Made by a program: the position numbers and the translations under genes
Part shown: piece after piece, positions 37,594 to 46,512 of the stretch
Layout of the letters: every line of letters begins with the position of its first letter
Position numbering within the stretch: the stretch's first letter is position 1
Assembly: GCF_018132105.1 (NCBI RefSeq)
Contig: NZ_JWHL01000003.1
Location: 62,001-126,000, forward strand
Source of the DNA: Methanocalculus chunghsingensis
GTDB lineage: Archaea; Halobacteriota; Methanomicrobia; Methanomicrobiales; Methanocorpusculaceae
DNA: 64,000 bases
Direction: 5' to 3'
Notes under the pieces: model-generated
What the model was told of the DNA's origin: nothing
Databases searched by the model: none
Seen by the model: the letters and a program-made list of their open reading frames with translations, nothing else

Positions 37594-38238
37594 TTAAAAG
37601 AATCTGCGAAGCCCCGTCTTCTCCACTCTACTGACACCCGCCTCGCCACCAAGTGCCCCCCTGATAGCCGGCACCCTCCTCTGTACCATCGTCCAGATGA
37701 GCTGCAGGTCAGTTCCATAGCATGATCCGGTCACCTCAGGAAGTGCCATCAGCGCCTGCCATGGGACCGAAGGGTGAGCAGCTTTACTCTCCACTGAAAT
37801 ACAGCGTGAGAGGAGGCCAATGGCATTGAGCGTTGCCAACACCCCTGCCTGGGTCTTTCTGTCCTGCAGGAAATCATGATACTGCATCCCCTGACAGAAG
37901 GTCTCGATATCCGAGAGTGATGAAATGATCTCTCTGAGAAAGAGCCGGGAATGTTTATGGTTTGCCGCCACTCCTTCGAAGATGAGTGGTTGTAGTTCCT
38001 CCCGTACTCCCTGCATGGAGATGATCGTTATATTCTGGCCGGTCTTCTCCCTGATATAGGTGAAAAGGCCTGCCATATCGAGGAGATCCCGATCATCTGA
38101 TAGGGCCACGATAACAGAAACCTCCCCGTCCCCCTGGAGCTTCGGGCCGAATGTGCCAAGTTTTGTCACACCAAACTTCTCTGTCATCTCAGCTTTCAGA
38201 TTTTTGAGAATGGACGTTATCTCCTGCCGTGATCTCAC
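37594..38238 (-). CDS. Fused MntA-HepT-like protein with eroded active sites
   Basis: The 214-residue protein aligns with a minimal nucleotidyltransferase (about 1-92: EITSILKNLKAEMTEKFGVT) joined to a HepT/DUF86 HEPN domain (about 96-195: LREIISSLSDIETFCQGMQY then FLQDRKTQAGVLATLNAIG). In active MntA the motif after the first strand is GSxARG...DxD; here it is GTFGPKLQGDGEVSVIVAL, with the Ser and both metal-binding Asp lost. In active HepT the motif is RNxLIHxY; here the position reads LPEVTGSCYG, without Arg and His. Normally these are two separate genes of a toxin-antitoxin pair. The frame is intact, so the product may be a non-catalytic descendant. Confidence 0.65.
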   Translation of the reverse strand: MRSRQEITSILKNLKAEMTEKFGVTKLGTFGPKLQGDGEVSVIVALSDDRDLLDMAGLFTYIREKTGQNITIISMQGVREELQPLIFEGVAANHKHSRLFLREIISSLSDIETFCQGMQYHDFLQDRKTQAGVLATLNAIGLLSRCISVESKAAHPSVPWQALMALPEVTGSCYGTDLQLIWTMVQRRVPAIRGALGGEAGVSRVEKTGLRRFF

Positions 38239-38283: not shown

Positions 38284-38637
38284 TTATCGATCTCTCCCCA
38301 TATCCTGCCGGAACCGCTCCTCCATATAGCGGGATACATTCTTTGTATTCCGGCTCTTCTTTCTTCGCCGCATCTCTCTCTGGCGCTGAAGGGAGATGAT
38401 CATGGTGACTGAGACGTATGAGAAGAAGATGAGGAGTGCTATTGCCATCGCCAGAAAGAGATAGGCGACGATACCGGGGGTCTGGTAGAGGACCATTGCA
38501 GATGATCTCTGATTGTATCGATACCCGATAGCTCTTTCTCTCTGTCTTTCTCCGGGTGGTGGGATTCTGCCGTGGAGATCCTCTGGGGGGATATCGTCAC
38601 CCTTCCCGTAATGGGAGGGTGCTGACATATGCTGCAT
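38284..38637 (-). CDS. Small single-pass membrane protein
   Basis: The 117-residue protein has a polar N-terminus rich in Pro and Arg, one membrane helix (IVAYLFLAMAIALLIFFSYV, about 58-80) and a strongly basic C-terminal tail (RRRKKSRNTKNVSRY). No family is recognised. It overlaps the end of the ABC permease by 41 bases on the same strand, so it is part of that operon and may be an accessory subunit. A second Met three codons later is an alternative start. Confidence 0.5.
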   Translation of the reverse strand: MQHMSAPSHYGKGDDIPPEDLHGRIPPPGERQRERAIGYRYNQRSSAMVLYQTPGIVAYLFLAMAIALLIFFSYVSVTMIISLQRQREMRRRKKSRNTKNVSRYMEERFRQDMGRDR

Positions 38638-39679
38638 ACCGGTTGAGGAGGACTGAGAGGAGGACTGCGACTGCAACCACTCCTGCAAGAATGAGCCAGT
38701 GCAGAGATCCGATCGTCCCGACAGCCAGGCGCACCAGGAGATTCAACGGGTTGTATGGTACTGACATGATGAAGATGATCACCACCACGATTGCCGTTGA
38801 GAAGACGAACTGGGCACTCGTCCTCTCGCGATAGTGAAGGGCAACCAGGGCACCGATAAGGATCAGAACCATCGAACCGGCGATGACATGGAGGAGCATC
38901 TGCACCGGATTCTGGACAGCGATCCCGTTAATCCAGAGGAGGGCGAGCCATGCAGCAGACTGGACCGGAACGATAAGGATACAGGCGAGTATCTTCCCCC
39001 AGATCATCTCCCCGTAGGTCACCGTCGTTGAGAGGAGTGTCTCGAGTGTTTTGGACTGGTATTCTTCGGTGATGAGGTCGATGATCAACGCGGCAGAGAT
39101 GATCGCCGGCATGAAGACGAGGAGCGGGATGAGAAGGCCAAAGACAAACTCATAGTAATTTGATCGGCCGCCGGTATCAGGGAAGTTCAGCTGGATCGGG
39201 TTCATTATCAGCCGATTCGAACGCACGCTCCTGAGTTCCTCCTCGTAGACGAGGAACGCCTCCTTCATCTTCACCTCAACAACGGCTGCCTGAATGTCAT
39301 TCTGGAGCGTATAGAGTGTGACGATGACAGGACCGGGATCATCCGGAGGGATCTCCGGAACCCAGATGACGGCGGACAACTGCCGTTCTTTCAGTAATGC
39401 GATTGCAGAATCGAGATCGAGATTGTATAGGGCGAGATCCCTTCGATCATCGATAATCCGGGAGAGATCGCCCTCCTCACCGACATAGCCGATTCCATAC
39501 TCGACACCCTGGTATCCGGCAAGAGCGTCGGGATCGTACATTGAGGTGAGGCCGATCATCAGAAACGATGAGAAGAGGGCGATAAAGAGCTGCAGGAGGA
39601 TGGCGAAGACGATGGTCTTCTCTGCATAGATCCCGGAGAGCTCCTTTCGTGCAATAATTCCAATGTTTCGGCTTTTCAT
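38597..39679 (-). CDS. ABC-2 type transporter permease
   Basis: The 360-residue permease has an N-terminal helix (about 20-45), a large extracytoplasmic loop (about 50-165) and five C-terminal helices (about 175-350), the NatB/ABC-2 topology. The ITEEYQSKTLETLLSTTVTYGEMIWGKI segment is the conserved coupling region before the membrane core. Its start overlaps the stop of the upstream permease-protease gene (TAATG). The ATPase is probably the divergent gene at 41632. The substrate is unknown. Confidence 0.82.
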   Translation of the reverse strand: MKSRNIGIIARKELSGIYAEKTIVFAILLQLFIALFSSFLMIGLTSMYDPDALAGYQGVEYGIGYVGEEGDLSRIIDDRRDLALYNLDLDSAIALLKERQLSAVIWVPEIPPDDPGPVIVTLYTLQNDIQAAVVEVKMKEAFLVYEEELRSVRSNRLIMNPIQLNFPDTGGRSNYYEFVFGLLIPLLVFMPAIISAALIIDLITEEYQSKTLETLLSTTVTYGEMIWGKILACILIVPVQSAAWLALLWINGIAVQNPVQMLLHVIAGSMVLILIGALVALHYRERTSAQFVFSTAIVVVIIFIMSVPYNPLNLLVRLAVGTIGSLHWLILAGVVAVAVLLSVLLNRYAAYVSTLPLREG

Positions 39680-41487
39680 TATGGGATCACCCCGATGACA
39701 GCGAGATTATAGATGGCATGAATGACGGTTGCGCAACATATCCCCGGGATATACATCCGGAGCCCCCCGGCCTTCAGGGCGATAGCGACGACCCCGAGGC
39801 AGACTGCATGGAGGAGGAAGGGCATCCAGAGCAGTTCAAGGGAGAGGAAGAGGATGCTCCCAAAGACCGACTCTGTCACCTGGGCGATGGTCGCAAAGAG
39901 GAGGAGCTTCTCTCCTGCAAGGAAGCCGAGTGCCGTCGCTCCTGAACCGAAGATGACATGCCGCCATCCCAGTCCTCCGGGAAGTATCTTCGCAAGTGCA
40001 TAGATCCCGATCGACTTCGCGATCTCCTCGGTTGCAGCGGCAAAGCCGATCAGGAGGAGGAGTGATAGTGGCATCGGGAGGTTGAAGACGAAGACAAGCC
40101 CCATCAGCTGTACCATGAAGACGAAGGGGATGACGAGTGCTCCAAGACTGAAGAGGGAGGGGAGGGTGTATTTCGTCGATATTCCGGCTGTTATAAACTC
40201 AATCGTCCGTGGAATGAGGTGATGGAACGAGAAGAGTCGTTCTTCATTGAAATTCACCACCCCTGCGTAGAGAAGGATTGCACTGGTGAGATAAAAGAGT
40301 GCGGTGGAGTAGATATAATCGGCGAGTGTAAATGCATCCCCCTGAATCTCAAGGACTATCAGGGTGAGCGGGGAGACGAGTGCGATCACATGGACATTGG
40401 CAAAGATGCTTGGGAAGAAGAGGTAGGATGTTGCGACTGTTGAGAAGAATATCGAGAGGAAGGAGAGTTCTTTGAAACTCCGGGCAAGCATGCCAATGAC
40501 GAGGGCGGCAGCAAGGAAGAAGAGGATGACCGGGATGAGAGGGAGGATGATGATCGGAGGGAGGCTACTGATGAGAATGATCAGACCCGATATGGCAAGC
40601 ATCAGCAGGAAGTAAGGGAGTGCCTTTCCGAGGATGATGGCTGATGGTCGATACGGTGTTGAGAGGAGGATCTCTCCACGCCGTTCGATCCGTTCGTTCA
40701 TAATACTCATCATGAAGAACTGGGAGGTGAAGTAGAGCGGGAAGATGAAGACGAAGATCAGGATGATCGAATCGAACGGAAGTGGCGGGGCAAGCTGTGC
40801 CGGTGTCCTGAATGTCCCCGTCTCAGATTCAAACCCAAGGGTCTGTGTGTACCGCCGTATCTGATCATCCTGCACTGCGGACCTTGAGATCTCTGCCCTG
40901 AGCTGATCAGGTTCGTAGGGGATTGTTACATCGGGGGTCGCTACCGGGACGACCGGCCGCTCTGGAACCGGTGCCCTCTCTTCCGGAACCGGCGATATCC
41001 GCTGGCCAGCCTGTGTGGCGGTAAAATCAAGAAGGCTTTTTTCATACCTGCGATCTATCCAGAGCGGATATGCCGCATACAGGTCCGGTTCTTCAGCATT
41101 GATGAGTGAGGTATAGCTCTCATACACCAGGCTGAGTGCCCCAAGGGCCGCTCTCCCCTTCTCATCATCATGGACGTAGACCTCACTCCCAAGGATAATG
41201 ATGTCAAAGAACTCCCTGTTTTCCCAGAGAGATGCCCCATCATCGGTAAAGACGGTGAACCGGCTGTCCGTTGCTATCATCTGCCCGGCCTCCTGATTAT
41301 CGGTTCCCAGGCGGTAGATCCCATCCTGCAGATGTACCCCGCTTGATGCCGCAAATCCGGAGGCGAGGATGAGAAGGACGAAGAGGATGATGGCAGCAGG
41401 CAGCACACCACGACCCATCGTTCCGAGGGTCCGGCGAAGCTCCCATCGGGAGATGACGCTGATCTGCCTGAGCATATGCATCCACAT
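39679..41487 (-). CDS. ABC-2 permease fused to a PrsW-type intramembrane protease domain
   Basis: The first ~410 residues are an ABC-2 permease: one N-terminal helix, a large external loop with a Pro-rich stretch, then the coupling segment MNERIERRGEILLSTPYRPS and about six helices. Residues ~430-602 are a second membrane domain with the PrsW motifs EEIAK (487-491), FLAGEK (Glu 526), LLHAVCL (His 560) and VIHAIYNL (His 590). PrsW-like enzymes are putative membrane-embedded metalloproteases. There is no stop or frameshift between the parts. The start could also be Met5 (41475). It is divergent from the ABC ATPase and coupled to the second permease. Confidence 0.78.
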   Translation of the reverse strand: MWMHMLRQISVISRWELRRTLGTMGRGVLPAAIILFVLLILASGFAASSGVHLQDGIYRLGTDNQEAGQMIATDSRFTVFTDDGASLWENREFFDIIILGSEVYVHDDEKGRAALGALSLVYESYTSLINAEEPDLYAAYPLWIDRRYEKSLLDFTATQAGQRISPVPEERAPVPERPVVPVATPDVTIPYEPDQLRAEISRSAVQDDQIRRYTQTLGFESETGTFRTPAQLAPPLPFDSIILIFVFIFPLYFTSQFFMMSIMNERIERRGEILLSTPYRPSAIILGKALPYFLLMLAISGLIILISSLPPIIILPLIPVILFFLAAALVIGMLARSFKELSFLSIFFSTVATSYLFFPSIFANVHVIALVSPLTLIVLEIQGDAFTLADYIYSTALFYLTSAILLYAGVVNFNEERLFSFHHLIPRTIEFITAGISTKYTLPSLFSLGALVIPFVFMVQLMGLVFVFNLPMPLSLLLLIGFAAATEEIAKSIGIYALAKILPGGLGWRHVIFGSGATALGFLAGEKLLLFATIAQVTESVFGSILFLSLELLWMPFLLHAVCLGVVAIALKAGGLRMYIPGICCATVIHAIYNLAVIGVIP

Positions 41488-41631
41488 AGCCAGAAATACG
41501 GTCGTTATCCTATAAAAGGATCTTCAAAGATGCAGGGTCCGGAGAATCACCCTCCACGTAATTAAACGGCATCCTCGACCTGAAGGTGCTTATTCGGGAA
41601 GTTTTATTCATCGTGGTGCCGATTGTGAACT
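41488..41631. promoter_or_regulatory. Divergent promoter region of the ABC exporter
   Basis: The 144 bases between the two divergent transporter units carry A/T-rich words on both sides (TATCCTATAAAAGG near 41510 and TTTTATTCAT near 41602). It probably holds both promoters; TATCCTATAAAAGG is positioned for the minus-strand permeases only if the leader is very short. Confidence 0.35.
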
Positions 41632-42525
41632 ATGATCCATGGCCGGGGTATTCGGAAAGAGTTTAATGGCTATACTGCACTGAAGGGGGTCGATATTGAT
41701 CTCCCGGAGAGCGGAATCTTTGGGATCATCGGTCATAATGGCGCAGGGAAGACGACACTGTTGAAGATCCTCTCCGGTCTTCTCACTCCTACCGAAGGTA
41801 CTCTCATCATTGATGGAATTGATGTCATCGCAGATCCGACTGAGCTGAAGATGCGTCTCGGCTACCTGCCGGAGGAGTCGCGCCTCTATGATACGATGAC
41901 GGTGGATGCCTATCTGAATTTCTTTGGGGAGATCTATGGGATGAGCCGATCTGAGATACAGCGACGCTCCGACGAACTCCTCACCTCCCTCAACCTCGAC
42001 CATAACGGGAAGAAGATCGGCGAACTCTCAAAAGGAATGCGGAGGAAGGTTGCGATCGCGCGATCAATTCTCCATGATCCCGATATCCTTGTCTATGATG
42101 AAGCCACCTCCGGCCTCGATCCGATGACCTCGCGGTTCATCACCGCCTATCTCCGCACCCTCAGGCGGGAGGGCAAGACGATCATCATCTCCGCACACAA
42201 CCTCTACCAGGTGGAGGAGATCTCAGACTGGGTGCTGATCCTCTCAGAAGGTGTCGAGGTCGCGTCAGGTTCCATGGATGAGCTCCGGGAGAGGTTCGGC
42301 TCGATAACCTATTATATCCATTTCCTGATCGATGATCCCGCTTCTCTCAGGGAGATCGCGGATATCATCCCTGATGACGGCATGTACAGGGCGAGTGTGA
42401 AGACCCTTGACGGATTGAATGCTGTTACCGCCCAGATCTCCTCCTCCGGGGGGCGTGTTGAACGGATTGAGTCACGATATCCAAGTCTTGAAGAGATGCT
42501 GATGGCTGTCGGGAAGAATGGATAA
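41632..42525 (+). CDS. ABC transporter ATP-binding protein (exporter type)
   Basis: The 297-residue ATPase has Walker A GHNGAGKTTLLK (about 34-45), Q-loop, signature LSKGMRRKVAIAR, Walker B ILVYDEATSGLDP and the H-loop in IIISAHNLYQVEE. The ~70-residue C-terminal extension (YYIHFLIDDPASLREIADII) is like that of Na+ or drug exporter ATPases. It is transcribed away from the two permeases, so the three form one transporter with a split layout. The final region resembles NatA/CcmA-type proteins. Confidence 0.87.
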   Translation: MIHGRGIRKEFNGYTALKGVDIDLPESGIFGIIGHNGAGKTTLLKILSGLLTPTEGTLIIDGIDVIADPTELKMRLGYLPEESRLYDTMTVDAYLNFFGEIYGMSRSEIQRRSDELLTSLNLDHNGKKIGELSKGMRRKVAIARSILHDPDILVYDEATSGLDPMTSRFITAYLRTLRREGKTIIISAHNLYQVEEISDWVLILSEGVEVASGSMDELRERFGSITYYIHFLIDDPASLREIADIIPDDGMYRASVKTLDGLNAVTAQISSSGGRVERIESRYPSLEEMLMAVGKNG

Positions 42526-42693: not shown

Positions 42694-42724
42694 TCTGTTT
42701 GACCTAATACCGTTGATTTCATAC

Positions 42725-42734
42725 CTATATATTA
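42725..42734 (-). promoter_or_regulatory. TATA box of the tRNA-Lys gene
   Basis: On the minus strand TAATATATAG lies about 35 bases before the tRNA 5' end, the usual archaeal spacing for a short 5' leader removed by RNase P. Confidence 0.5.
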
Positions 42735-42790
42735 CTTGTGAATTACGCCTGAAACAGCATTATTATCTGGTAGCCCCAATAAGAATAGGT

Positions 42791-44263
42791 ATGGCGGATG
42801 GAGGCAAAGGTGACCCGAGGCCGAAGGTTCGGTATATGGTATTTGGCTGCGGGAGCATCGGCTATAACGTCATCGAAGAGCTTCTCAAAGAGACGAATAA
42901 TATTCTGGTCATCGATTCTGATGAGAAGAGGGTTGAGGATTTAAAAGATCAAAAATATCAGGCACTTGCCCGTGACATTTCAGATCCGGATCTCTTTAAA
43001 GACCTTCCAATCCCGGAGATCGTCTTCATCCTCTCAAGCAATAAAGAAGCCAATCTCAATGCCGTGGAACAGACAAAGAAGACGCATCCTCAGGCATTCT
43101 CGATAGCACGGGCAGTTGATCTCTTCTCGGTCGATACCCTCGCTGAAGCAGGAGCCGACGTTGTTCTCTATCCTCAGCAGGTGGTGGCAAAGTCCGCAGT
43201 CCATCATATGAAGACGCTGACCGCCGCACGGAGTGCGCATCGGCTCTATTCAGTCTTTGAGGGGTGGACCGGCACTCTTGGCGTACTCACCCACAGAAAC
43301 CCGGATCCGGATTCCATCTCAAGTGCCATGGCCCTCTGCGCCATTGCACAGGAGGCAGCACAAGGGCAGTTAACCTGTCGCATCCTCTATGAAGGGACCG
43401 TCGGCCACCAGGAGAATCGTGCCTTCGTCAACCTTCTCGATATTCAGATGGAGAGGATGACCCCGGAGAAGCTTGCAGAATGTAACCATCTTGCCCTGGT
43501 TGACTCTCCGGGACCGGGAATCAATAATGATCTCAATCCCGGCACCCAGGTTGATATCATCATCGATCATCACAGCATCGAGGGGATAGAACGCAGTTAT
43601 AAACCTGATTTTATTGATATCCGGCCTGAGAGCGGTGCGACTGCGAGCATCTTCGCCCAGTACCTTCAGGAACTTGACATCAGAATCGATACGAAGATCG
43701 CAACAGCCCTCTACTACGGCATTCGCGCAGATACCCGGGAGTTCCGGCGCAATGTCACTCCAAATGATCTCTATAACGCAGCATATCTTCTTCCCTTATC
43801 TGATACTGATCTCCTTGACAAGATCATGTCCCCATCATTCTCACAGGAGACGCTTGAGGTTATGGGGAATGCCATCTCCACCCGCTCCATTAAGAACGGA
43901 TATCTCTTCTCAAATGTCGGGTTTATCAGGAATCGGGATGCGATTCCACAGGCGGCTGATATGCTGGTAAATCTTGAGGGTGTAACGACAGCACTCGTCT
44001 ATGGCATCACCGATGCCCATATCATCATCTCTGCCCGTAATAAGGATATCCGGGTGCATATCGGCAATGTCCTCAAGGAAGCCTTCGGGGACTTCGGTGA
44101 TGCCGGCGGCCACGGGACAATGGCGGCTGCACAGATTCCATTAAACTACTTCTCGATGGTCCGGGATAAAGAAGACCTCCTGAAAATGATCATCGATCCG
44201 ATCCTTCACAAATTTACTGATATCGTTGGTATTGATGATAATGGGGATAAAAATGAGGTTTGA
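42791..44263 (+). CDS. TrkA-N (RCK)-DHH/DHHA1 phosphoesterase fusion protein
   Basis: The 490-residue protein has an N-terminal NAD-binding RCK domain (about 14-130; MVFGCGSIGYNVIEELLKE and VIDSD), then a DHH phosphoesterase domain with THRNPDPDS, ALVDSPGP, IIDHH and a DHHA1 part ending in GDAGGHGTMAAAQIP. DHH enzymes of this group cleave short nucleic acids or cyclic dinucleotides. No potassium channel gene is beside it. The start at 42791 (MADGG) is chosen over an earlier in-frame one because the upstream residues look random. Confidence 0.82.
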   Translation: MADGGKGDPRPKVRYMVFGCGSIGYNVIEELLKETNNILVIDSDEKRVEDLKDQKYQALARDISDPDLFKDLPIPEIVFILSSNKEANLNAVEQTKKTHPQAFSIARAVDLFSVDTLAEAGADVVLYPQQVVAKSAVHHMKTLTAARSAHRLYSVFEGWTGTLGVLTHRNPDPDSISSAMALCAIAQEAAQGQLTCRILYEGTVGHQENRAFVNLLDIQMERMTPEKLAECNHLALVDSPGPGINNDLNPGTQVDIIIDHHSIEGIERSYKPDFIDIRPESGATASIFAQYLQELDIRIDTKIATALYYGIRADTREFRRNVTPNDLYNAAYLLPLSDTDLLDKIMSPSFSQETLEVMGNAISTRSIKNGYLFSNVGFIRNRDAIPQAADMLVNLEGVTTALVYGITDAHIIISARNKDIRVHIGNVLKEAFGDFGDAGGHGTMAAAQIPLNYFSMVRDKEDLLKMIIDPILHKFTDIVGIDDNGDKNEV

Positions 44264-44873
44264 GGAGTTTGAGCCTCATTACCTTGAGATCCTTGATTAC
44301 TTCGGCTTTGACCGGGAAGGTGATGAGGAGGCTGCACGCCTCCTCTCAGAGCTGCTTGATCGTGATGATCTTTCACTTCTCAGGGATCGGATCTCAGGCA
44401 ATGTCGTGACGGTCTGTGGAAATGCAGAGATCCTCAGAGAGCAGCTCAATGATATCGAAGGTGTCGTCATTGCTGCAGATGCTGCGGCCCTCGTCCTCTA
44501 TGATGCGGGTATTCTTCCTGACGTCATCTTCACCGATCTCGATGGTGCCGATGATCCCTTCATCACGATGAGTGACGAGGGGGCTCTCATCGTCGTTCAT
44601 GCTCATGGTGACAACAAACCTCTCCTCTCCCGCTGGGTTTCACGACTGAAGGGGCCTCTTGTCGGTACCACGCAGAGCCGGCCATTTGATGGAATCCATA
44701 ACTTTGGCGGCTTCACCGATGGTGACCGTGCCGTATTTGCCGCAGACGCACTCGGGGCAGAGAAGATCATCATCCTCGGCTTCGATCTCTCGGACACCTC
44801 TGTCGATCCGATGAAGCGGGGGAAACTCCTCTGGGCACGGAAACTGCTCGGGATGATCGGCTATGACCTCTGA
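44253..44873 (+). CDS. mptE: 6-hydroxymethyl-7,8-dihydropterin pyrophosphokinase MptE
   Basis: The 206-residue protein is the archaeal, non-homologous equivalent of FolK in tetrahydromethanopterin synthesis (MptE/DUF115). Its middle has VTVCGNAEILREQL, VIAADAAALVL, VIFTDLDGADD and VVHAHGDNK, characteristic of the family. The start at 44253 is preceded by GGGGAT and overlaps the DHH gene by 11 bases. It overlaps the radical SAM gene downstream by 11 bases. This is one of the best signs of a methanogen-type folate pathway. Confidence 0.85.
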   Translation: MRFEEFEPHYLEILDYFGFDREGDEEAARLLSELLDRDDLSLLRDRISGNVVTVCGNAEILREQLNDIEGVVIAADAAALVLYDAGILPDVIFTDLDGADDPFITMSDEGALIVVHAHGDNKPLLSRWVSRLKGPLVGTTQSRPFDGIHNFGGFTDGDRAVFAADALGAEKIIILGFDLSDTSVDPMKRGKLLWARKLLGMIGYDL

Positions 44874-46512
44874 CGCCCTTATTATCGACGGGTATGTCGA
44901 TGAACCCGCATGCCTTGGGGTCCCTCCGTACATCTCCCCGTATATCAGGACGGTCGCTGGTGTTCTCTATCATGCAGGGTACCGGGTACAATACAGGACG
45001 ATCGATGAGATCCGATCTGCACCGCAGGAGGTGCAGAGCCTCCGGAATATCCCCCTTGTTGTCGTGATTGCCGGCCAGACGGTGCCTGGCAAGTATCTTG
45101 CAGGGACTCCTGCAACCGCAAATGAGCTTCACCAGATCGGATCGCTCTTTGAGGGGAGTTCTGCGCTGCTGGGTGGCCCGGTCGTCCATGGGATCTCATC
45201 GGGCGGGGGTACGCGGGCAGTGAAGGAGCTGATGGCCGGGTACCGTGAACTCCTTACCGGCGATCCCGCAACCGCACTTCAGCGGTTCCTGGAAGGATCT
45301 GATCCCGCTGGTGACGAGGTGTACGATGAGAGCAGGATATGGAGCATCCTCGGGGCGGAGATCATCAGGGATCACCCGCTCTATCCGAATATCATCATCG
45401 AACTTGAGACTGCAAAAGGATGCTCCCGCTCCACCACAGGGGGCTGTTCCTTCTGCACAGAGCCGTTCTATGGGCCGCCCAGGTACCGTCCCATATCAAT
45501 GGTGGAAGAGGAAGTCTCTGCCCTGTATGCCGCCGGTGCCCGTCACTTCCGCCTCGGCCGTCAGCCGGATCTCCTTGCCTATGGAACAGGGGGAGGAGAA
45601 TTTCCGATCCCGGATCCGGAGAAGATCCGATCCCTCTTTACGGCCATCCGCCGGGCAGCACCGGATCTCCGGACCCTTCATATCGATAACGTCAATCCGG
45701 GGACGATCGCTCATCACCAGGAGGCGTCGCGTGAGGCGCTGGCTGCAATCGTTGAAAATCATACTCCGGGGGACATTGCAGCATTCGGGATGGAGACCGC
45801 AGATCCCGCCGTCATCTCGGCAAATAATCTGAAGGCATCACCGGATGAGGTGATGGATGCTATCCGGATCGTCAATGAGATCGGGGGGCGGCGGGATGCA
45901 GACGGGGTACCGCATCTCCTTCCCGGACTGAACTTCGTCTGCGGGCTTGCAGGTGAGACGGAAGAGACCTACGACCGAAACCGTGCCTTCCTTGAAGAGC
46001 TTCTCTCCTCGGGGCTGCTGGTCCGGCGAGTGAATATACGTCAGCTGATGCCGTTTGAAGGGACACGTGCCTATGAGGAGAATACTCTTGATCAGCACCA
46101 TCCACTCTTTCGTTCTTTTAAGGAATGGACCCGGAAGAGATTCGACCCCGTCATGCTCGAAGCCGTCTTTCCGATCGGGACGGTGCTGCGGCAGGTTGCC
46201 GTGGAGGTTGCCGGCCCTCTCTCGCTTGGCCGCCAGATGGGAACATACCCGATCCTTGTTGGTCTCCCACTGGCCTTTGAGAAGGGGGACCTCCTTGATG
46301 CAGCTGTTGTCGGATATGGAAGCAGATCGCTCACCGCTCTTCCTGTACCGATCATGATCAACCAGCTGCCGGCATCTGCACTGAAGGCACTCCCCGGCAT
46401 CGGAAAGAAGACCGTGGCATCGATCATGGTCCGGCGCCCGTTTCAGGATATCAACGCCTGGAAGAAGGTGACCGGGGGCACTCTGATCGATGATCTGATC
46501 ACCTTCGTCTGA
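44863..46512 (+). CDS. Radical SAM protein with CX7CX2C motif and C-terminal helix-hairpin-helix
   Basis: The 549-residue protein has an N-terminal Rossmann-like (B12-binding type) region (about 1-150), a radical SAM barrel whose cluster cysteines read GCSRSTTGGCSFC (C187, C195, C198), thus CX7CX2C instead of CX3CX2C, and a C-terminal helix-hairpin-helix (LKALPGIGKKTVASIMVRRP, about 508-530). FGMETADP and NFVCGLAGETEETYDRN fit the MiaB/elongator-like radical SAM group. The HhH suggests nucleic acid binding. Substrate unknown; it is coupled to mptE by overlap. Confidence 0.72.
   Translation: MTSDALIIDGYVDEPACLGVPPYISPYIRTVAGVLYHAGYRVQYRTIDEIRSAPQEVQSLRNIPLVVVIAGQTVPGKYLAGTPATANELHQIGSLFEGSSALLGGPVVHGISSGGGTRAVKELMAGYRELLTGDPATALQRFLEGSDPAGDEVYDESRIWSILGAEIIRDHPLYPNIIIELETAKGCSRSTTGGCSFCTEPFYGPPRYRPISMVEEEVSALYAAGARHFRLGRQPDLLAYGTGGGEFPIPDPEKIRSLFTAIRRAAPDLRTLHIDNVNPGTIAHHQEASREALAAIVENHTPGDIAAFGMETADPAVISANNLKASPDEVMDAIRIVNEIGGRRDADGVPHLLPGLNFVCGLAGETEETYDRNRAFLEELLSSGLLVRRVNIRQLMPFEGTRAYEENTLDQHHPLFRSFKEWTRKRFDPVMLEAVFPIGTVLRQVAVEVAGPLSLGRQMGTYPILVGLPLAFEKGDLLDAAVVGYGSRSLTALPVPIMINQLPASALKALPGIGKKTVASIMVRRPFQDINAWKKVTGGTLIDDLITFV

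Follow-up and report, generated by a model that had tools for sequence, protein, structure and literature searches.

Production and secretion of peptides from lipoprotein leaders in Staphylococcus aureus depend on both an intramembrane protease, Eep, and an ABC transporter, EcsAB (PMC7157817). In the EcsAB/PptAB and Eep (RseP) systems, a protease and an ABC exporter act on the same hydrophobic peptides, with Eep, a metalloprotease of the site-2 type, being a separate protein. The best-known activity of PrsW is the cleavage of RsiW at site 1; a published survey, in its section on domain fusions, interprets combinations with sensory domains as signalling peptidases and names toxins, PilZ, cNMP-binding, FHA and Zn-ribbon domains and DUF2324 as partners, with no ABC permease among them (PMC3482391). 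An ABC permease and a glutamic intramembrane protease are found in one chain in the NCBIfam family NF041647 (ABC transporter permease subunit/CPBP intramembrane protease). Membrane proteolysis in archaea is poorly understood, and a recent review lists what the PrsW-like protease of Haloferax volcanii does as unknown (PMC9263693). According to the same source, the PrsW-like HVO_0408 of this species is raised in a mutant of the rhomboid RhoII.

Here we describe an archaeal locus in which a putative protease is physically tied to what appears to be an ATP-driven transporter. The window, by which we mean the whole 64,000-nucleotide stretch of Methanocalculus chunghsingensis (Methanomicrobiales) DNA that was analysed, contains a gene for an ABC-2 permease fused to a PrsW-type domain, together with genes for a second permease and an ATPase (Table 1). 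As in NF041647, permease and protease share a chain, but the protease there is of the CPBP type and that of the window fusion is of the PrsW type; at E 0.1, the model gave no match among 30 orthologues of the fusion. The second permease scores 39.5 bits against NF041647, below the 435-bit cut-off, and we rejected this match as a lead because the model gives matches below the cut-off in 13 of 14 control genomes. Whereas the ABC permease/CPBP fusion is already catalogued, the permease/PrsW version is widespread and appears to be undescribed: we found no paper describing it in the literature that we searched.

Table 1. Features of the locus, in window positions.
Feature	Position	Strand	Basis
Fusion gene, ABC-2 (type V) permease + putative PrsW-type intramembrane protease, 602 aa	39679..41487	(-)	Single ORF; orthologues in 174/232 class genomes; dN/dS about 0.1
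Permease part, residues 1-411: TM1, ectodomain about 49-236, TM2-TM6	40255..41487	(-)	ABC2_membrane_3 in 29/30 orthologues; Foldseek best match; loop charges
Putative PrsW-type protease domain, residues 425-602, all-helical model, about five membrane helices	39682..40215	(-)	PF13367 in orthologues; AF2; profile alignment
Motif 1, EExxK (E487, E488, K491)	40015..40029	(-)	119/119 fusions
Motif 2, FxxxEK (F522, E526, K527)	39907..39924	(-)	119/119 fusions
Motif 3, His (H560)	39808..39810	(-)	118/118 fusions having that residue
Motif 4, HxxY[N/D] (H590, Y593, N594)	39706..39720	(-)	H and Y in 118/118; N in 114, D in 4
Second ABC-2 permease, 360 aa	38597..39679	(-)	PF12698 above cut-off; adjoins fusion in 32/32 loci
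ABC ATPase, DrrA-like, 297 aa, divergent	41632..42525	(+)	PF00005 2.8e-30; beside fusion in 29/32 loci
Small, basic membrane protein with a single pass, 70 aa; confined to Methanocalculus among the genera looked at	38284..38496	(-)	Homologues of 48-70 aa at the same place in other Methanocalculus loci

Integrity and spread of the fusion gene

The preliminary description of this DNA had proposed a full ABC-2 permease fused to a membrane protease, and this is borne out by one ORF in the window and by the same fusion in relatives. The fusion was found in 174 of the 232 genomes of the class, with no internal stops among the matches listed. When only good genomes are counted, an uninterrupted fusion ORF is present in 116 of 135 genomes of the class, representing 36 of 40 genera, and the fusion is present in 188 of 322 genomes of the phylum (82 of 136 genera). 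About half of the species sampled across the phylum carry it, and most matching genomes have a single copy. Because one-ORF orthologues are so widespread, the objection that two genes, separate in all relatives, have been joined by a frameshift falls.

The ratio dN/dS is about 0.1 in the permease half and about 0.1 in the protease half, which points to purifying selection on both and therefore to a fusion that is the product of neither chance nor a frameshift. We rejected the possibility that a frameshift or an assembly artefact joins two genes, since the ORF is uninterrupted in orthologues across the class and the phylum, which already refutes it. Nothing speaks for such an artefact, whose probability we regard as negligible; the exception to the general pattern is one partial genome (locus L158, 6941-8696), where the gene is split into two overlapping ORFs in different frames, through either a frameshift or an assembly error. 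That the permease and the PrsW-type protease form one intact protein is, in our judgement, nearly certain.

The PrsW-type domain

In the published model of PrsW, the motifs are EExxK, FxxxE, an additional His within helix five that is missing from CAAX proteases, and HxxxD/N one helix further on (PMC4602095). The fusion has in common with the PrsW family (PF13367, MEROPS M82; Bacillus subtilis PrsW) the EExxK and FxxxE motifs, the penultimate-helix His and the last-helix HxxxN/D. The residues highlighted previously (E487/E488, K491, E526, H560 and H590) lie where they had been placed, and the EExxK, Glu and two His motifs to which they were assigned proved invariant in all 119 fusions compared, a set of distinct and widely diverged proteins of which one is truncated. 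The window protein is nevertheless much diverged from the PrsW family, and differs from it in sitting behind an ABC-2 permease and in being tied to an ATPase and a second permease.

PF13367 scores above its cut-off at the corresponding position in many orthologues, the best reaching 32.3 bits against a cut-off of 23.5 with most of the profile covered; the Pfam profile search did not detect this family in the window's own copy or in the other Methanocalculus copies. When a wider profile of the protease domain, built from 119 rows, was compared with stand-alone PrsW proteins from the same class, 151 columns aligned (P 1.2e-4, probability 54%), with EExxK, FxxxE and HxxYN/HxxFN in register, and two unrelated profiles used as controls gave P values of 0.09 and 0.73. 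Direct profile comparison of a narrow alignment (A2) with PrsW gave a weak match (P 0.004, probability 8%), and a sequence-profile search of the PDB with this alignment gave none. The protease domain has a confident AF2 model (pLDDT 90.6), which places the motifs in helices; that of the full fusion is of moderate quality (mean pLDDT 67.9) and its ectodomain is poor.

APH-1 of gamma-secretase is a known distant relative within the CAAX/PrsW/APH-1 superfamily, and APH-1 chains take ranks 2, 5 and 8 among the structural matches of the protease-domain model, with TM scores up to 0.49 and E-values above 1. Rce1 is absent from the best 50 of these matches. At such E-values, the fold comparison is in favour of the PrsW assignment but does not prove it. 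The motif HExxH is absent from the 602-residue sequence, so this is not an Eep-type protease, and the likeness to Eep would be functional only. The motifs and profile matches indicate that the C-terminal part of the fusion is a PrsW-type domain and a putative glutamic intramembrane protease.

A different possibility is that the locus encodes an ordinary exporter of small molecules or lipids in which the PrsW-like part is structural and non-catalytic. This would agree with the best Foldseek match of the permease part, a mycobacterial ABC efflux pump, and with the RefSeq name of one homologue, ABC transporter permease subunit. However, 119 widely diverged proteins all keep the catalytic-motif residues, and buried Glu and His residues in membrane helices would not be expected to persist without catalysis. 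We therefore consider a non-catalytic role improbable.

Over 40 sequences, the loop charges of the fusion are consistent with a defined orientation in the membrane. The N terminus carries +4.0 and the ectodomain, which is about 180 residues long, carries -13.9; loops 2-3, 4-5, 6-7, 8-9 and 10-11 are positive, and the remaining loops are neutral or negative. This alternation matches the positive-inside rule, so that an N-in, C-out topology is predicted. E487 and E488 are predicted to lie mid-membrane; for E526, H560 and H590 the prediction is the middle to outer half, a placement compatible with cleavage of the site-1 type at the outer side.

The predicted topology also bears on the chief rival to the extraction-and-cleavage model set out below, namely an ATP-gated regulatory protease. 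Here the ABC part would carry no cargo but would use ATP to gate the protease or, by way of the ectodomains, to sense conditions outside the cell, and a membrane-bound regulator or a surface protein would be cut at site 1 by the PrsW part. Such a role would suit the size of the ectodomain and the predicted position of the catalytic pocket toward the outer half, and it has precedents in the site-1 cleavage of RsiW by PrsW and in the PrsW fusions with sensory domains that are read as signalling peptidases (PMC3482391). Against it, 32 loci share no neighbouring gene for a regulator or an anti-sigma-like protein. The target would also have to be of another kind, since archaea, to our knowledge, have no sigma factors. 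We regard a regulatory protease as rather unlikely.

The gene unit and its proposed function

The second permease gene lies directly 3' of the fusion in all of 32 diverse loci from across the phylum, and the ATPase gene was detected alongside in 29 of them. Fusion and second permease genes overlap or abut; in the window the ATG of the second permease overlaps the fusion stop by one base. The profile of the second permease is related to the N-terminal part of the fusion (P 1e-7, profile comparison), so the two permeases are relatives and plausibly form a pair. The ATPase gene starts 144 bases from the fusion and runs in the opposite direction; its Walker A, signature and Walker B motifs are intact (GHNGAGKTT, SKGM and YDE, invariant in 17 orthologues). 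The second permease and divergent ATPase that had been described next to the fusion are thus both present and conserved with it.

The permease half of the fusion belongs to the ABC2 clan, PF12698 (ABC2_membrane_3) being found in 29 of 30 orthologues at E 0.1. The ATPase, with its DrrA-like C-terminal domain, and the permease fold resemble those of the type V ABC exporters DrrAB, NosDFY and the mycobacterial pump 8k1n. The window system differs from these in having a protease domain and two unequal permeases; we know of no protease domain carried by DrrAB, NosDFY or 8k1n.

Among 33 genomes scored as negative for the fusion, 32 are also without the second permease; the other genome turned out to carry both genes. 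As judged from this co-occurrence, the three genes stand or fall together and form one gene unit. The ATPase gene is divergent in methanogen-like loci and co-directional in loci taken as haloarchaeal, so the adjacency has outlived a rearrangement. In the fusion gene tree, family labels change 18 times, the minimum possible, and inheritance has therefore been mostly vertical, with losses. Within the window's family, the sister genus, which we infer to be Methanocorpusculum, is without the fusion in the genomes listed, and the four tested are also without the second permease. Its nearest relatives retain the unit, and this genus serves as an example of loss. A search of plasmids for the fusion gave one haloarchaeal match, in Haladaptatus, and a search of phages gave none. 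A link to archaeosortase A and the sorting of surface proteins was uninformative, TIGR04125 being present in 322 of 322 good genomes and the fusion in 188. Promoter and terminator scans, which do not cover archaeal promoters, were at chance level.

We propose, with a probability of roughly 45%, that the unit extracts or exports membrane peptides at the expense of ATP and cleaves them near the outer face. The three genes would encode one type V (ABC-2) exporter, made up of the ATPase, a permease A with the PrsW-type protease at its C terminus and a permease B. Driven by ATP hydrolysis, the permease pair would take in hydrophobic peptides of the membrane or small membrane proteins, candidates being signal-peptide remnants, lipoprotein leaders and damaged single-pass proteins, and the attached protease would cleave them near the outer membrane face during extrusion. 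Membrane-resident substrates, such as small membrane proteins and the leader peptides that signal peptidases leave behind, would best match an ATP-driven pair of permeases that has a proteolytic site alongside. The role of the unit would be resident envelope maintenance or peptide release. The sequences show the anatomy of the proteins, their conservation, the gene unit and its inheritance; we infer complex formation, topology, catalysis, substrate and coupling in this model, and we assume the direction of export from the family.

The proposed system would be a fused counterpart of EcsAB/PptAB with Eep. It is a more doubtful step to see in it an ABC transporter that powers an intramembrane protease, with extraction and cleavage in one complex, as an undescribed, phylum-wide ABC counterpart of the AAA+ membrane proteases that clear the membrane. 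The unit could show whether an ABC transporter drives intramembrane proteolysis, which separate-gene pairs like EcsAB-Eep only suggest. It is mostly single-copy and vertically inherited, and the phylum includes genetically tractable groups, which makes direct tests possible.

Cargo and neighbouring genes

The preliminary description had seen in this locus a candidate for a new peptide-export system, a claim that is only partly supported as regards a dedicated one. The fusion, the second permease and the ATPase stand as a unit, but the dedicated cargo does not: a search for small peptide genes near the fusion found none that recurs across the 32 loci, where ORFs of at least 60 aa were analysed, and inheritance is vertical. 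No neighbour beyond the three genes is conserved across these loci; in seven loci, the analysis 3' of the second permease gene extended to ORFs as short as 35 aa. The small basic membrane protein that had been counted in the cluster is present in the window, but it is conserved in Methanocalculus only and was not found in the other genera looked at, and it may be an accessory rather than a core part. It was placed at 38284-38496, which gives it 70 aa, as in its relatives. We rejected a dedicated cargo gene beside the unit, as none is among the conserved neighbours at these ORF sizes and the small protein is confined to its genus.

CPBP proteases, which are related, have been linked to bacteriocin processing, and bacterial C39-type ABC exporters with a peptidase process such cargo. 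By analogy, the unit might be a cargo-specific exporter that removes the leader of a dedicated bacteriocin-like or signal peptide encoded elsewhere in the genome, or an immunity pump against peptides of this sort. Unlike the C39 peptidase-containing exporters, the window system has no C39 Pfam domain and, among ORFs of at least 60 aa, no recurring small neighbour, the three genes alone being conserved. Vertical inheritance in mostly single copy is unlike an antagonistic cassette, as is the near absence of matches in phages and plasmids. We consider a cargo-specific role unlikely, and favour a general function for the proposed exporter over a dedicated peptide because of the missing cargo gene and the broad vertical distribution; vertical inheritance likewise makes a resident envelope function likelier than a cargo-specific or antagonistic cassette.

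In seven Methanoregula-like loci (L033, L038, L041, L053, L061, L068 and L086), an insert of roughly 1 kb lies between the ATPase and fusion genes, in the divergent promoter region. Some of the inserts encode an MBL-fold hydrolase, others a secreted protein of about 290 aa that is rich in proline and threonine. The inserts are not conserved and represent recurrent insertion of unrelated gene types at one spot. In one distant family of the phylum, a gene for a RuBisCO-like protein adjoins the unit (L193, 2526-3893). Beside the window's ATPase gene, a TrkA/DHH-type protein, a 215-aa protein and a radical-SAM protein (42713-46512) form a block that recurs across many of the order's genera, which makes the position in the chromosome an old one. 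Downstream of the unit (37594-38238) lies a gene for a 214-aa protein with a HepT-like C-terminal domain (PF01934 above cut-off), which is conserved within the genus, with an identity of only about 50%.
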